A stretch of 64,000 nucleotides of DNA from Thiogranum sp. (lineage in GTDB: Bacteria; Pseudomonadota; Gammaproteobacteria; DSM-19610): positions 372,001 through 436,000 of the forward strand of contig JASBSS010000035.1 of NCBI GenBank assembly GCA_030148805.1, given 5' to 3'. The notes beneath the pieces are model-generated. The model ran no database searches, was not told the origin of the DNA, and was given only the letters and a program-made list of their open reading frames with translations. The translations under genes and the position numbers were made by a program. Shown in pieces: positions 3,882 to 26,854 of this stretch; position 1 is the stretch's first letter; every line of letters starts with the position of its first letter.

Positions 3882-6800
3882 TTCTGTCGGACGTCTCGAT
3901 CACGCGGCCGGTCTTCGCCTCGGTGCTGTCGCTGCTGCTGGTGGTGTTCGGGCTGCTGGCTTTCGAGCGGCTGCCGCTGCGCGAATACCCCGACATCGAT
4001 CCGCCGGTGGTGTCGGTGGAGACCACCTATCCCGGGGCGGCGGCCAATGTGGTGGAGAACCGCATCACCGAGCTGATCGAAAACCGTATCGCCGGCGTGG
4101 AGGGTATTCGGTTCATCGAATCGAGCAGCGAGGACGGCCGTTCGGTGATCAACATCGAGTTTTCGGTCGGCCGGAACATCGACGCGGCGGCCAACGACGT
4201 GCGCGACCGGGTCTCCACCGTGCTCGACGACCTTCCCGACGAAGCCGACCCGCCCGAGATCCAGAAAGTCGACAGCAACGAAGACGTCATCATGTGGCTC
4301 AACCTGGTGAGCGATCGCATGAGCGTGCCGGAGCTGACCGACTATGCCGAGCGTTACCTGGTGGACCGGTTTTCGGTGTTGAACGGGGTGGCGCGGGTGC
4401 GGGTCGGCGGCGGGCAAGTCTACGCCATGCGCATCTGGCTGGATCGGCGGCAGCTGGCGGCGCGCAATCTGACGGTTGCCGATGTCGAAAGGGCGCTGCG
4501 CGCGGAGAACCTCGAATTGCCCGCCGGCAGCCTGGATTCCGCCGCGCGCCAGTTTACCGTGCGCACCGAGCGCAACTTCCGCAGCGCCGCGGACTTCGCC
4601 CGCCTGGTACTGGCCCGTGGCGACGACGGCTACCTGGTGCGCCTGGGCGATGTGGCGCGGGTCGAGCACGGCACGGCCGAGGACCGGTTGTTTTTCCGGG
4701 GCAACGGCGTACCCACCGTGGGCATCGGGATCATCAAACAGTCCACCGCCAACACCCTGGCCGTGGCCGACGCCGCCAAGGCTCTGATGACGCGCGTCAA
4801 CGCGGGCCTGCCGCCGGGCATGGCGCTGAAACAGAGTTACGACAGCTCGGTGTTCGTCAAGGGCGCCATTCGCGAGGTCTACAAGACGCTGTTCATCGCC
4901 ATCCTGATGGTCGTCGGGGTGATCTATCTGTTTCTCGGCAGTGCCCGGGCCACCCTGGTGCCGGCGGTGACGGTGCCGGTGTCGCTGGTGGCGAGCTTTC
5001 TGGTGCTCCAGGCGCTGGGTTTCTCGATCAATATTCTCACCTTGCTGGCGCTGGTGCTGGCCATCGGCCTGGTGGTGGACGACGCCATCGTGGTGATCGA
5101 GAATATCCATCGACGCATGGAGACCCTGGGTGAATCGCGTCTGGTGGCCGCCTACCGGGGTACGCGTCAGGTGGGTTTTGCCGTCGTCGCCACGACCGTG
5201 GTGCTGGTGTCGGTGTTCGTGCCCATCGCTTTTTTGCAGGGCGATATCGGCCGGCTGTTTTCCGAATTCGCCCTGACCATGGCCGCGGCGGTGGCCTTTT
5301 CGAGCTTTGTCGCCCTGTCCTTGTCGTCCATGCTCGCCTCGAAGGTGCTGCCGCCGATCGGTAGCAGGCCCGCCTTGTCGCGCGCCGTCGACGGACTGTT
5401 CGAAAAGGTGCGGCGCGCTTATCACCGGTCGCTCCAGTGGGCGTTGCGCCACGCCTGGGCGGTGGGGTTGGGCTTCGCCGGGATCGTCGGCGGTTCCTTG
5501 TGGCTGTTCGAGCAGTTGCCCGACGAGTACGCGCCGAAGGAAGACCGCGGCGTGTTTTATCTGATGGTCACCGGCCCCGAGGGCTCGTCGTACCAATATA
5601 TCGCCACCTATATGACCGAGATCGAGCGGCGCATGCTGCCGCTGGTGGAAAACGGCGAAATCAGCCGCCTGCTGGTGCGCGCACCGCGCGCCTTCGGCAA
5701 TTTCGAGATCTTCAATACCGGCATCGTCATCAACGTGTTGAGCGACTGGTCGCAGCGACGCTCGGCCTGGGAGATCATGGACGACGTGCGTGACCGGCTT
5801 CAGGGATTGCCGGGCGTGCGCGTCTTCCCCGTCATGCGCCAGGGCTTCGGGGCCCGTATCCAGAAGCCGGTGCAGTTCGTCATCGGCGGCGGCACCTATC
5901 AGGAGCTGACCGAATGGCGCGATATTCTGGTGGAGAAGATCAACGCGAACAATCCCGGTCTGGTCGGTCTGGACTGGGACTACAAGGAGACCAAGCCCCA
6001 GTTGCGGGTACGCATCGATTACGACCGCGCCGCCGAACTCGGGGTGACGGTCGGCGACATCGGCCGCACCCTGGAGACCATGCTCGGGTCCAGGCGCGTG
6101 ACCACCTACATCGATGCCGGCAAGGAATACGACGTCATCGTGGAGGGGGAGCGCAGTACCCAACGCACGCCCACCAATCTGGAGAACATCTATGTCCGCT
6201 CGCAGCGTAGTGCTCAGCTGATACCGCTTTCCAATTTGGTGCGACTGGAGGAGTTCGCCGATTCTCTGAAGCTGAACCGTTACAATCGGGTAAGGGCGAT
6301 CACCCTGGAGGCCAATCTGGCCGACGGTGTCGCCCTCGGCAGTGTGCTGAACACGCTCGAGCGGCTGGTGCGCGAGCATCTCCCCGGCAGCGCGATTATC
6401 GACTATAAAGGGCAGTCACGGGATTACAAGTTCGCGGGCGGCTCGATCCTGTTCATCTTTGTGCTCGGCGTGGCGGTGGTGTTCCTGGTGCTGGCCGCGC
6501 AGTTCGAGAGCTGGGTGCATCCCCTGGTCATTATGCTGACGGTTCCCCTGGCCATGGCCGGTGCCCTGCTGGGGCTCTACCTGACCGGGCAGACGCTCAA
6601 CCTGTACAGCCAGATCGGTTTGATCATGCTGGTGGGGCTGGCGGCCAAGAACGGCATCCTGATCGTCGAGTTCGCCAATCAGTTGCGTGACGCCGGCCGC
6701 CCCTTCCGCGAGGCGCTGACCGAAGCCGCGGACGTGCGTCTGCGCCCCATTGTGATGACCGGCATCACCACAGCCGCCGGTTCCGCGCCGCTGTTGCTCT

Positions 6801-23128: not shown

Positions 23129-24607
23129 TCAATAGGGACCGGCGCGCGCATGATCCAGCCGGCGGACGAAGTCCCCCATGATGATGCGGTACAGTTCGTC
23201 GTCCAGATAAGCGTCTTCCACGCCGCTGTCGATCGAGGGGTTGTCGTTGATCTCGATGACCACCGAGCGCTGACCGCTGGTTTTGATGTCGACACCGAAC
23301 AGGCCGTCGCCGATCAGGCGCGCGGCGCGGGTGGCGATTTTGCATACCTCGCGCGGCACATGCTGAATACCGACGGTCTCGGAGTTGCCGCTGCGGTATT
23401 TGTTGGCCGCATGGTTGTAGATCTGCCAATGGCCGCGCGCCATGTGGTACTTGCAGGCGTAGATGGGCCGGTGGTTGAGAATCCCGATCCGCCAGTCGTA
23501 ATCGGTGGGCATGAATTCCTGCAACAGAACGATGGCCGAGCGCTTGAACATGTTCTCCACGCCCTGCTGCAGCTCCTCGGCGCTGTCGGCCTTCTCCACG
23601 CCGATGGAAAACGACCCGTCGGGGATCTTCATGATCAGCGGAAAGCCCATTTCCGCTTCGATCTGGGCGTAGTCCACCGGTTGTTCGCGTAACAGCAACT
23701 GGGTCACCGGCTGCGCAATGTTGTGGGTATCGAGCAATTCGTTGAGAAAGACCTTGTTCGAGCAGCGCAGAATGGCATCCGGCGCGTCGATGACGGTCAG
23801 GCCTTCGTGTTCGGCGTGTTTGGCGAAGCGATAGGTGTGGTGATTAACCGCCGTGGTCTCGCGGATGAACAAGGCGTCGTATTCCGCCAGGCGGCCGAAA
23901 TCATCGGGGGTGATCAGCTCCACGTCCAGGCCGAGCTTGTTGCCGGCGCGAATGAACTTGTTCAGCGCCGTGCGGTTGCTTGGCGGCAGCGCCTCGTCGG
24001 GATTGTGCAGAATGGCCAGGTCGTAGCGGTTGCGACGGCGCAGGCGGGGGCGGCGCCAGACGCGTTTGCAGAAGGCGTCCAGGCTGTCGCCAAACAGCGT
24101 CTGCTCGGCATTGTCGAGTTCCTGCAGATCGCCAAAGCGTACCGCGACCACTTTCCACTCGGGCGTGCCGGACAGCTGAACCCGCAGAATCGGGGCGCTG
24201 TAGCGCTCGAACAGCGAACGGGCGAAGGCCGCCAGTTCGGGGACGTCGCACTTGCCGAAAACGATCAGCAGCTCCAGGCTGTCGACGTCGGTCATGCCGA
24301 GTTTGCGCAGATAGGCCTCGATGGCGCGCTCGAGCTCGTTGTCGAACAGACGATAGTGGGCGAAGTTGTGCAGGTCGTTGATGGTGCTGACCGAGGGGAT
24401 GACCTTCTCGCCCCTGGCTTCGCCCAGCAACGAGCAATAGTAGCCGGTGCCCAGATATTCAAGGCCGCTGCAGAGGTTGATTATGTAGCCGGGTTTTTGC
24501 TCCGTTTGCGTCTGTTGCAGGTAGTCCTGCGCCGTAATGACGTTTTCGCTGGGGTAGTAGGGTGACCACGCCGCGGCATCATCGACGATGATGCGGAATT
24601 GTTTCAT
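23129..24607 (-). CDS. RimK-like ATP-grasp ligase with N-terminal RLAN domain
   Basis: This 492-residue cytoplasmic enzyme has an N-terminal RLAN-type domain (about residues 1-200; start QFRIIVDDAAAWSPYYPSEN) and a C-terminal RimK-like ATP-grasp domain (about 205-480). ATP-grasp landmarks include FIRETTAVNHHTYRFAKHAE, the lysine of PLIMKIPDGSFSIG, LLQEFMPTDYDWRIGIL and the Mg-binding VVIEINDNPSIDSG. Such enzymes form an amide bond between a carboxylate activated by ATP and an amine, for example adding amino acids to a peptide or protein tail. Its substrate is unknown. It is divergent from the GNAT-peptidase fusion at 24829, a pairing I recall from comparative genomics of ATP-grasp systems, so the two probably act on a common substrate. 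Confidence 0.88.
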   Translation of the reverse strand: MKQFRIIVDDAAAWSPYYPSENVITAQDYLQQTQTEQKPGYIINLCSGLEYLGTGYYCSLLGEARGEKVIPSVSTINDLHNFAHYRLFDNELERAIEAYLRKLGMTDVDSLELLIVFGKCDVPELAAFARSLFERYSAPILRVQLSGTPEWKVVAVRFGDLQELDNAEQTLFGDSLDAFCKRVWRRPRLRRRNRYDLAILHNPDEALPPSNRTALNKFIRAGNKLGLDVELITPDDFGRLAEYDALFIRETTAVNHHTYRFAKHAEHEGLTVIDAPDAILRCSNKVFLNELLDTHNIAQPVTQLLLREQPVDYAQIEAEMGFPLIMKIPDGSFSIGVEKADSAEELQQGVENMFKRSAIVLLQEFMPTDYDWRIGILNHRPIYACKYHMARGHWQIYNHAANKYRSGNSETVGIQHVPREVCKIATRAARLIGDGLFGVDIKTSGQRSVVIEINDNPSIDSGVEDAYLDDELYRIIMGDFVRRLDHARAGPY

Positions 24608-24828
24608 CGAATTCGGAGCGCCTCGTGAGGGTTGTCGACGGCGGCAAATGTCGCACCAAAGCAGGCTGTAGGCAAGCGCTTTTGCCTCTGGCCGGGGTAC
24701 TCGCCGCCGCCGGCCGCAGCGAGGTCCACGCCCGCCGGGCCGGCGGTGGTCTTCACGGCGCGAAAAATCACTTCCATAGGGCCCGGTTCAGGCGGCATTA
24801 TGCGCTATCGGACCCAAGTTCTTTACCC

Positions 24829-25971
24829 ATGATTCGTACAGCGACCCTGGATGATCTCGACGCATTGCTGTCGCTCGAGGAACAATGCTTCGAGGAAGAC
24901 CGCATCAGCCGCCGTCAGTTCCGCCATCTGCTCACGCGCGCCAACGCCACTGTGCTGGTCGAGACCGGCGAGGCCGGGACGCTGTTGGGCGATGCCGTCG
25001 TGTTGTTCTCGCGCGCCACCTCGGTGGCGCGGCTTTATTCGCTGGCGGTGGCGCCGCAGGCGCGCGGCCAGGGGGTGGCCACCGCCCTGGTGCACGCCGC
25101 CGAACAGGCGGCCTGGGCCAAGCACCGCGCCTATATCCGGCTGGAAGTGCGCAAGGACAACCAACGGGCGATGGCGCTCTACGAGCGCCTCGGTTACCGC
25201 CGCTTCGGCGAATGGGCCGACTATTACGATGATCACGCCGACGCCTGGCGCTACGAGAAATCCTTGTCGCCGGAACTGCGGCCTTCACTGCGCGAGGTCG
25301 TGTGGTACGAGCAGAGCCTGGAGTTCACCTGCGGTCCGGCGGCCCTGATGATGGCCATGGCCACGCTCGACCCGGCGCTCAAGCCCAGCCGCAAACTGGA
25401 ACTGCGCCTGTGGCGGGAGGCGACCACGGTGTTCATGACGGCCGGGCACGGCGGCTGCGGTCCCTACGGCCTGGCGCTGGCGGCGGCCCAACGCGGCTTC
25501 GATGTGCGGGTGTATGTCAGCGGCAAGGGCGTGCATCTGGTGGACTCGGTGCGCGGCGAGGACAAAAAGGAAGTGATGCGCCTGGTCCAGGAAGACATGC
25601 GCGACCAGCTGCGCGCCCTGCAGGTGCCGGTGATCCATGCCGCCGTGTCGCTGAAGAAAATGGAGGCGGAATTTACCGCCGGCGCCATCCCCCTGGTATT
25701 GATCTCCTCGTGGCAGATCTACGGCGAACGCTTTCCCCACTGGGTGGTGGTCAGCGGCTTCGACGCCAGCTTCGTCTACGTGAATGATCCCTACGTGGAT
25801 TATGACGCCGGCGAAACCGCGCTGGATTCCATTTCCATGCCCATCGCCCGCGAGCGTTTTGCCGCCATGGCGCGCTATGGGCGGGTGAAACTACAGGCCG
25901 TGGTGATGTTGGCCGCCCGCAGCGACAGTCTGTCGCAGGCCAATGCCCCGGCCAAGTCCATGGCGGAATAG
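24829..25971 (+). CDS. Fusion of GNAT acetyltransferase and C39-like cysteine peptidase
   Basis: This 380-residue cytoplasmic protein has a RimI-like GNAT domain (about residues 1-145) and a peptidase C39-like papain-fold domain (about 150-365). The acetyl-CoA loop is VAPQARGQGVATALV, and the GNAT tail NQRAMALYERLGYRRFGE is present. In the second domain a complete Cys-His-Asp triad is visible: C168 in SLEFTCGPAALMMA, H304 in FPHWVVVSGFD and D320 in YVNDPYVD. The start at 24829 fits the GNAT N-terminus (MIRTATLDDLDALLSLEE), although no good ribosome-binding site precedes it and the frame stays open back to 24625. It is divergent from the RLAN/ATP-grasp gene, suggesting a two-component modification and cleavage system. 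Confidence 0.88.
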   Translation: MIRTATLDDLDALLSLEEQCFEEDRISRRQFRHLLTRANATVLVETGEAGTLLGDAVVLFSRATSVARLYSLAVAPQARGQGVATALVHAAEQAAWAKHRAYIRLEVRKDNQRAMALYERLGYRRFGEWADYYDDHADAWRYEKSLSPELRPSLREVVWYEQSLEFTCGPAALMMAMATLDPALKPSRKLELRLWREATTVFMTAGHGGCGPYGLALAAAQRGFDVRVYVSGKGVHLVDSVRGEDKKEVMRLVQEDMRDQLRALQVPVIHAAVSLKKMEAEFTAGAIPLVLISSWQIYGERFPHWVVVSGFDASFVYVNDPYVDYDAGETALDSISMPIARERFAAMARYGRVKLQAVVMLAARSDSLSQANAPAKSMAE

Positions 25972-26078: not shown

Positions 26079-26444
26079 ATGCCCACTGCTGAGATTTGCC
26101 GAGCCCCTGAGGACACCGCTTTGGAAGAACTCGAGCGCGACGAGGAAGGCTTTCTGCTCGACGCCCAGGATTGGCATTCCGGACTGATCGCGCCGCTGGC
26201 GGCGGAAAGCGGCCTGCCGCTGACGCCCGAGCGCCTGGCGGTCATCCAGTATATCCGCGATTACTTCGAGACCAACATGAGCGTCCCCGAGGCGCGGGTC
26301 CTGTTGAAACATCTGCGCACCACCCTGGGTGAGGAGAAGGCGACGCGACGTTATCTCTATCAGCTTTTTCCGCGCGGTTACGGCCAACAGGCCTGCAAGA
26401 TCGCCGGCATGCGCAAGCCGCGGAAACTGATGCTGGACGTCTGA
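26079..26444 (+). CDS. DsrC/TusE-family protein retaining only the inner cysteine
   Basis: This 121-residue protein shares the DsrC/TusE/RspA fold. Recognisable blocks are DEEGFLLDAQDWHSGLIAPLA, LTPERLAVIQYIRDYFE and the C-terminal arm QLFPRGYGQQACKIAGMRKP. In true DsrC the arm ends KPTGCV, carrying the penultimate cysteine (CysA) that accepts sulfur, plus CysB eleven residues earlier. Here CysB is kept as C106 but the CysA position is L117, and the tail is RKLMLDV. TusE proteins keep CysA, and the regulatory RspA class lacks both, so this is an atypical paralogue. It probably cannot act as a standard two-cysteine sulfur carrier. A redox or regulatory role is inferred. It is convergent with the ferritin-like gene 25 bp away. 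Confidence 0.85.
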   Translation: MPTAEICRAPEDTALEELERDEEGFLLDAQDWHSGLIAPLAAESGLPLTPERLAVIQYIRDYFETNMSVPEARVLLKHLRTTLGEEKATRRYLYQLFPRGYGQQACKIAGMRKPRKLMLDV

Positions 26445-26469: not shown

Positions 26470-26766
26470 TTATTCGGCCTCCTGGTGGGCGATCGGCGCC
26501 TCGGTGAACAGATAGTCGCGCAGTTCCTTGTCGAGCCGGGAATCGCGCCGGCGCAGCCATTCGAGCACCATCGCCGCGTGTTCCTTTTCCTCGTCGCGGT
26601 TATGCGCCAGAATGGCCTTGAGCTCCGGGTCCTTGCAGGCGTCGACGCGCTGGTTGTACCAGTCGACGGCTTCCAGTTCCTCCATCAAAGAGACAATGGC
26701 GCGGTGGAAATCGCGCGTCTCGTCGCTCAATTCCTCAATCGGTTCGTGATAGCCTTCGTTACTCAT
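26470..26766 (-). CDS. Encapsulated-ferritin-like (EncFtn) protein without cargo tail
   Basis: This 98-residue helical protein closely resembles the encapsulated ferritin described from Rhodospirillum rubrum. The iron-site helix reads SLMEELEAVDWYNQRVDA and the second helix HNRDEEKEHAAMVLEWLRR. The ferroxidase ligands correspond to E30, E60 and H63, with W36 and Y37 also conserved. EncFtn proteins work as annular decamers whose iron centres form between subunits, and are normally packed into an encapsulin shell through a C-terminal targeting peptide. Here the protein ends directly after YLFTEAPIAHQEAE, with no such peptide, and no encapsulin gene is in the window. It may be a free ferroxidase or work with a shell encoded elsewhere. 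Confidence 0.88.
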   Translation of the reverse strand: MSNEGYHEPIEELSDETRDFHRAIVSLMEELEAVDWYNQRVDACKDPELKAILAHNRDEEKEHAAMVLEWLRRRDSRLDKELRDYLFTEAPIAHQEAE

Positions 26767-26854
26767 TACCTAAATCCCTTGTTGGTCGCGAGGTGCGGGA
26801 ACTGTCGACGAAGAATTATACCGCAGACCTCGCGGGCGAGGTACGCTCGGGGTT

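Follow-up and report, generated by a model that had tools for sequence, protein, structure and literature searches.

The described proteins closest to the one studied here are small members of the encapsulated ferritin (EncFtn) family, which occur with and without a C-terminal targeting peptide. Among solved structures, the best sequence match is NE0167 of Nitrosomonas europaea (PDB 3k6c, 95 aa; phmmer, 1.3e-46), a protein without apparent targeting peptide that belongs to the short forms named 's-FLP' in a 2024 review (PMC11202242, in the text accessible), according to which 3k6c forms decamers (unpublished). The second-closest, R. rubrum EncFtn (Rru_A0973, PDB 5da5, FLP-TP class; 5.5e-39), bears a SLGIGSLK-type C-terminal tag (accessible text of PMC11202242). 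A tree from 2016 (PMC5012862) contains a 'Non-EncFtn' group of EncFtn-related proteins that, like the protein studied here, are without an encapsulin sequence; the available sections of that paper contain no survey of shell co-occurrence for this group, unlike the present analysis. In its accessible portion, the 2024 review leaves a possible undefined binding sequence in the s-FLP tail as an open question, and its Table 2 includes LFTD(E/N)KPIAHE among the targeting peptides, marked 'putative' and uncharacterised. EncFtn/Flp cargo without its shell was reported to be unable to keep mineral soluble (PMC7762939 and PMC8346489, accessible parts). A literature search with most subscription papers outside its scope returned no title that points to functional work on a short form, and the available portions of the literature examined report no activity measurements for such proteins; PMC11518796, considered as a candidate short-EncFtn paper, was rejected, since its accessible text deals with an encapsulin-like prophage protein.

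Short forms are already known from NE0167/3k6c, the 'Non-EncFtn' group (2016) and the 's-FLP' class (2024), and the protein described here is an ordinary member of the s-FLP class, which is widespread but has been little studied. Newly added are a test of shell co-occurrence, a set of diagnostic positions, and a genome that contains both a short form and a tagged paralogue. The short EncFtn studied here probably works outside any encapsulin shell, as an Fe(II)-oxidising ring.

A short EncFtn gene in Thiogranum

The gene lies in a 64,000-nt stretch of Thiogranum sp. DNA (the window), on contig C30 of a 3.78 Mb genome in 38 contigs (95.9% complete; G000), and was found at the position, strand and length given for it in a preliminary description (Table 1). 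Its product matches the Pfam EncFtn-like family (PF22277) with E = 3.9e-45 (152 bits, cut-off 27), so that chance is no explanation for the match, and the TIGR04535 model 'encapsulin-associated ferritin-like protein' with 142.1 bits (cut-off 125) over model positions 1-92 of 114, which is everything except the tail. On this sequence evidence, the protein belongs to the EncFtn family.

Table 1. Location of the features discussed (window positions unless a genome or locus is given)
Feature	Location	Strand	Basis or detail
Short EncFtn-family CDS (P0002)	26470..26766	minus	98 aa, ATG to TAA
Leader, mprF to EncFtn gene	26767..26854	minus	88 nt; sequence
mprF	upstream of EncFtn gene	same as EncFtn gene	NF033480, 785.9 bits
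DsrC/TusE-family gene	26079-26444	convergent with EncFtn gene	PF04358, 5e-31
RimK-like ATP-grasp gene; GNAT + DUF3335/peptidase C39-like fusion gene	23129-25971	minus; plus	RLAN domain in the RimK-like protein
Tagged EncFtn of the same organism	G000:C10, L004 5552-5959		GSLGIGSLR tail, directly upstream of encapsulin
Family-1 encapsulin	G000:C10:12806-13558		PF04454, 3.9e-86; NF041155, 311.3 bits
DsrC/TusE-family genes at shell loci	L004 5997-6401 (G000:C10); L256, L257, L258; L240; L248		PF04358
EncFtn gene fragments	G008:C1:890300-890386; L222 (G021); L223 (G046); G370:C1:314086-314265		short open frames, ~32-70 aa
EncFtn-encapsulin fusion (L156/L254)	G196:C227, ~5480-6226	minus	encapsulin model positions 116-252

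The ferroxidase residues E30, Y37, E60 and H63 align with E32, Y39, E62 and H65 of R. rubrum EncFtn (numbered as in the available text of PMC5012862), with which the protein shares the core fold as well as the entry-site (E29, E32) and exit-site (H55, E59, E62) equivalents; these four residues and W36 all stand where the preliminary description had placed them. It is of the same length class as NE0167, aligns with it over residues 1-95 (~80% identical in the structure match) and has the same ferroxidase residues, but differs in W36, where NE0167 has L, and in three additional C-terminal residues; the window's genome also has an encapsulin. The protein ends right after the conserved core, as had been noted previously, and its C-terminus (TEAPIAHQEAE) was searched for a targeting motif such as GSLxIGSL, which is absent. 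Relative to the LFTD(E/N)KPIAHE-type C-terminus, the end of the window protein (LFTEAPIAHQEAE) retains PIAH, has A in place of K at position 90 and is longer by three residues. The AlphaFold model (mean pLDDT 72.8, a moderate confidence, and below 50 for residues 93-98) predicts helices at 15-43, 47-74 and 78-87, in agreement with the two long antiparallel helices and short third helix of the EncFtn family; C44 falls in the turn joining the two long helices, and the best structure match to the model is 3k6c. By analogy with 3k6c and 5da5, the protein would be expected to adopt their fold in detail and to form a D5 decamer.

Codon positions 1/2/3 account for 4/1/20 of the nucleotide differences between the gene and its sister copy in locus L030; these change 3/95 residues, two of them in the tail, a pattern indicative of purifying selection. 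A sequence error or lost C-terminus, raised in the preliminary description as a possible cause of the short length, was rejected: the L030 sister shares the stop codon (98 aa) and the substitutions are biased toward third positions, and all of the 80 named loci described below are likewise short, though that set favours short forms.

The leader carries an AAGGGA-like ribosome site right ahead of the ATG and a TATAAT (26820-26815) spotted by eye, while a promoter scan reported no sigma-70 pair in it. Regulation of the short form by Fur was rejected, with no clear excess of Fur boxes over shuffles in 81 upstream regions (mean best 15-mer score of 8.07, compared with 7.81 in base shuffles). The mprF and DsrC-like neighbours are only local to this type of locus, as they are absent at the EncFtn gene of genome G003 (L032/L265), which lies between a glucose-6-phosphate dehydrogenase gene and a GNAT/C39 gene. 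No conserved operon partner was found in the window and the 80 named loci (flanks up to 8 kb): the largest neighbour clusters are frames overlapping the EncFtn gene itself, and the next are big superfamilies at scattered distances, including ABC-ATPase-like proteins (11/81, by eye), pyridine nucleotide-disulphide oxidoreductases (8/81) and histidine-kinase/response-regulator proteins (7/81), with one member of each of the latter two checked against Pfam. In this genome a DsrC-like neighbour occurs at the short-form locus and at the tagged one alike. A DsrC-like partner of the short form was nevertheless rejected, being missing from the syntenic G003 locus and present at 1/80 named loci. The genome has ten PF04358 matches; the one in the window, a DsrC/TusE-family protein, contains a cysteine in QACKIAG and no penultimate cysteine. 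Further along, the RimK-like and GNAT/C39-like genes, which adjoin each other in L030 and L032 as well, look like a peptide-modifying pair.

Short forms as a stable group

A search of the genome_contigs collection gave at least 572 relatives among 588 candidate stretches, of which the best 80 were kept as named loci; these are the closest to the query and hence biased toward short forms. Lengths in these best 80 of 572 are 94-99 aa (exactly 95 aa in 71/80), IAH is present in the tail at 68/80, and a targeting motif at 0/80. Among the matches listed, the closest named record is a metagenome-assembled genome of Thiogranum, a genus of the Gammaproteobacteria (99% identity over residues 1-93); by their titles, the records come from Gamma-, Zeta- and Alphaproteobacteria among others, with Thiobacillus denitrificans and Marinobacterium litorale as culturable examples. 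A fairer test of length is the profile survey with PF22277, covering 370 genomes of the class that are at least 90% complete. The cut-off was exceeded in 110 of these, comprising 91 with a solo short form, which span 60 families, 15 with shell-adjacent EncFtn only, and four (G021, G046, G370, G097) with fragments or a marginal match. The solo short forms are exactly 95 aa long in 48 cases and 94-103 aa in 89, the other two having 118 and 122 aa, and none of the 91 carries a targeting motif by a pattern that was composed after the tails had been inspected. Dropped before these counts were L183 and L193 (which coincide with the shell-adjacent L143 and L144), L222 and L223 (fragments of ~40 aa), L224 and L225 (no blast match), rows under the PF22277 cut-off, and contig-end loci with a second piece of encapsulin (L154, L155, L157). 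The short EncFtn proteins form a stable group, which answers a question raised in the preliminary description. The two longest, L172 (G359) and L200 (G086), have a Lys/Ala/Pro-rich tail that could bind nucleic acid or something else; both genomes belong to one genus and also carry a SrpI-like family-2 shell gene.

Residue conservation was compared between 172 short rows (91 from the survey, 80 from the named loci and NE0167 itself, with some genomes represented twice) and 23 tagged rows (R. rubrum EncFtn and 22 shell-adjacent loci, among them the L156 fusion). Residues 29, 30, 32, 37, 59, 60, 62 and 63 are invariant in 172/172 short rows and H55 is present in 171/172. Short forms can be told from tagged ones such as R. 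rubrum EncFtn at positions 38, 44 and 94: N38 is found in 91% of short and 0% of tagged rows, C44 in 97% and 26%, respectively, and H94 in 79% of short rows, with E commonest at this position in tagged rows. Position 71 is I in 94% of short rows, compared with L in 95% of tagged rows; the window protein has L. These differences, together with the missing strong bacterioferritin (Bfr) match in 49/91 short-form genomes and the lack of a clear Fur-box excess, would be in line with another di-iron function than cellular ferroxidase, such as removal of peroxide or O2 or an electron or metal relay, with C44 and the tail histidine serving a different partner. This reading is unlikely, given that the ferroxidase, entry and exit residues are kept across the short rows as iron oxidation predicts.

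Within the window's own branch the tail has drifted, from PIAHQEAE (G000) to PIADLEEK (G014) and PITQLEES (G003), with the protein core little changed between G000 and G014; PIAHx is retained by the other four of seven same-genus short forms examined (G001, G002, G004, G009). As a minor argument beside the survey, this drift would speak against a required docking peptide. In a tree of EncFtn rows (94 columns, 115 rows; L158 left out as a same-genome duplicate), the label short or tagged changes 4 times, compared with 21.1 in shuffles; 69/112 inner branches are open, and the direction of tail gain or loss is undecided. Two tagged, shell-adjacent EncFtn proteins, L143 (G078) and L144 (G284), have cores 79-80% identical to the window short form, and a PF22277 profile search found no second EncFtn in either genome; from their sequences, they may represent a switch by tail gain. 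The EncFtn gene fragments listed in Table 1 appear to be decayed copies, one being from the genus of the window.

Encapsulin shells and the tagged paralogue

Shell genes were searched for as family-1 encapsulin and SrpI-like family-2 encapsulin. Family-1 encapsulin is present in 22/370 genomes, and in all 22 an EncFtn gene adjoins the shell gene (23 loci), with a C-terminal targeting motif at 22/23 loci; the exception (L156) is a fusion, and L161 has only a short FTVGKP ending. By contrast, 84/91 short-form genomes are without family-1 encapsulin. SrpI-like family-2 shells gave strong matches in 7/370 genomes, three of them short-form genomes, so that 81/91 short-form genomes are without either type of shell; no control genome matched in this family-2 search. 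Short form and encapsulin occur together in 7 genomes, as against 5.4 expected from the margins, and no association was detected (Fisher odds ratio 1.47, p = 0.45, on the simplifying assumption of fully independent genomes). The proposal of a soluble, shell-free form made in the preliminary description is thereby favoured by the distribution, but not by the organism itself, which has a shell. In the L156/L254 fusion, the EncFtn domain is continued in frame by the C-terminal half of an encapsulin whose N-terminal half is missing, reflecting either a deletion fusion or an assembly artefact.

The sole family-1 encapsulin match in the window's genome is on contig C10, separate from the contig of the short form, and no SrpI-like family-2 match was found in this genome, or in the control genomes. 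The preliminary description was correct about the neighbourhood, where DsrC-like and MprF proteins and no encapsulin are encoded, but its absence of a shell does not extend to the genome. The C10 encapsulin comes close to the case that was named there as evidence against a shell-free form, an encapsulin elsewhere with this protein among its cargo, but falls short of it because this shell has its own adjacent cargo and the window protein is without a tag. That cargo is a second EncFtn that matches the same family models, is 72% identical to the window protein over the core, and ends in GSLGIGSLRGENDQNG; the window protein has neither such a tail nor an adjoining encapsulin. Since the shell has its own adjacent tagged EncFtn, the window protein is a paralogue of the cargo, separate from the encapsulin-EncFtn pair. 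Contamination is an unlikely source of these shell genes, as the sister genome G014 holds the same pair of systems, with an encapsulin 88% identical to that of G000.

The presence of a shell in 7/91 short-form genomes and the 72% core identity of the two paralogues would allow for mixed rings, in which short and tagged subunits share a ring and enter the shell together where both systems coexist. This is improbable, as it gives no account of the 84 genomes without family-1 shell, and the paralogues differ at group-diagnostic positions (e.g. N38/E, C44/T) and are encoded at separate loci with no common operon. Least probable of all is that the short form is cargo of encapsulin by virtue of a tag not yet described, with LFTD(E/N)KPIAHE at its C-terminus docking the ring inside a shell: the peptide is listed as putative in Table 2 of the review (PMC11202242, accessible text), the tail is conserved (IAH in 68 of the best 80 of 572 loci, H94 in 79% of the 172 short rows) and the window's genome has a shell, but most short-form genomes have neither shell type (84/91 without family 1, 81/91 without both; p = 0.45), the motif is lost in the close relatives G014 and G003, with four other same-genus short forms retaining it, and the G000 shell already has its own tagged cargo.

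The shell loci have a further feature in this genus. DsrC/TusE-family genes (PF04358) sit immediately upstream of the pair formed by tagged EncFtn and encapsulin in G000, G014, G007 and G002, which are all four shell-bearing genomes found among 17 same-genus genomes; this neighbour is shared even though encapsulin identity to G000 is only 27% in G007 and G002. Outside the genus, a DsrC-like gene is within 6 kb at 2/21 shell loci (G293, G238), some loci being cut by contig ends, and among the 13 best matches to one DsrC-like type in the 370 genomes, two are beside a shell, both in G238. The DsrC-like proteins of the shell loci have no cysteine in the last ~30 residues, whereas DsrC proper has a cysteine in that C-terminal stretch. 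A literature search of the same scope as above found no paper in which DsrC and encapsulin appear together.

Proposed iron oxidation outside a shell

For the short form, working outside a shell as proposed above, the interface of two subunits would contain a di-iron ferroxidase centre, and five such dimers would make an unpackaged decameric ring that uses O2 or peroxide to oxidise cytosolic Fe(II). As there is no shell to retain mineral, the resulting Fe(III) would be passed to another sink, for which bacterioferritin is one candidate; alternatively, the protein may act mainly in iron or oxidant detoxification. In the window's genome, one bacterioferritin scores 253.8 bits, and a second, Bfr-like protein falls under the cut-off with 74.9 bits. 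Strong Bfr matches (E <= 1e-40, a line set by the authors) are present in 42/91 short-form genomes and any Bfr match in 57/91, so Bfr is no general answer for the sink. As an obligatory partner it was rejected, the association being weak or absent (strong, p = 0.14; any, p = 0.04; uncorrected for kinship) in a tally table of 197 of 198 genomes, where the strong line gives 146 matches and the tool cut-off 148.

Several points weigh against the shell-free reading. It invokes a role without a proven sink, in the face of the reports on cargo lacking its shell (PMC7762939 and PMC8346489, accessible parts); bacterioferritin as candidate sink is missing from part of the short-form genomes; a shell is present in 7/91 of them, this one included, where mixed rings are conceivable; and it leaves the conserved tail (IAH in 68 of the best 80 of 572 loci) unexplained. 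A more speculative extension, put forward only tentatively, is that short EncFtn rings, present in 91/370 sampled genomes, might serve the class as a major system for handling iron or oxidants without a shell, distinct from encapsulin cargo, with the PIAHx tail and C44 docking a cytosolic partner that takes the oxidised iron, and that the tagged cargo might be the same ring with its tail added or exchanged.

A shell has been described as necessary for mineral handling by EncFtn, and the 2024 review, in its accessible text, left open a hidden tag in the short forms. The occurrence of short forms mostly in genomes where no family-1 shell was found, with no association to shells, together with N38, C44 and H94, argues that a decameric ferroxidase works unencapsulated in many bacteria. 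The fate of Fe(III) at such an open ring is now directly testable, and organisms with tagged and untagged paralogues, such as the one described here, are good test cases.
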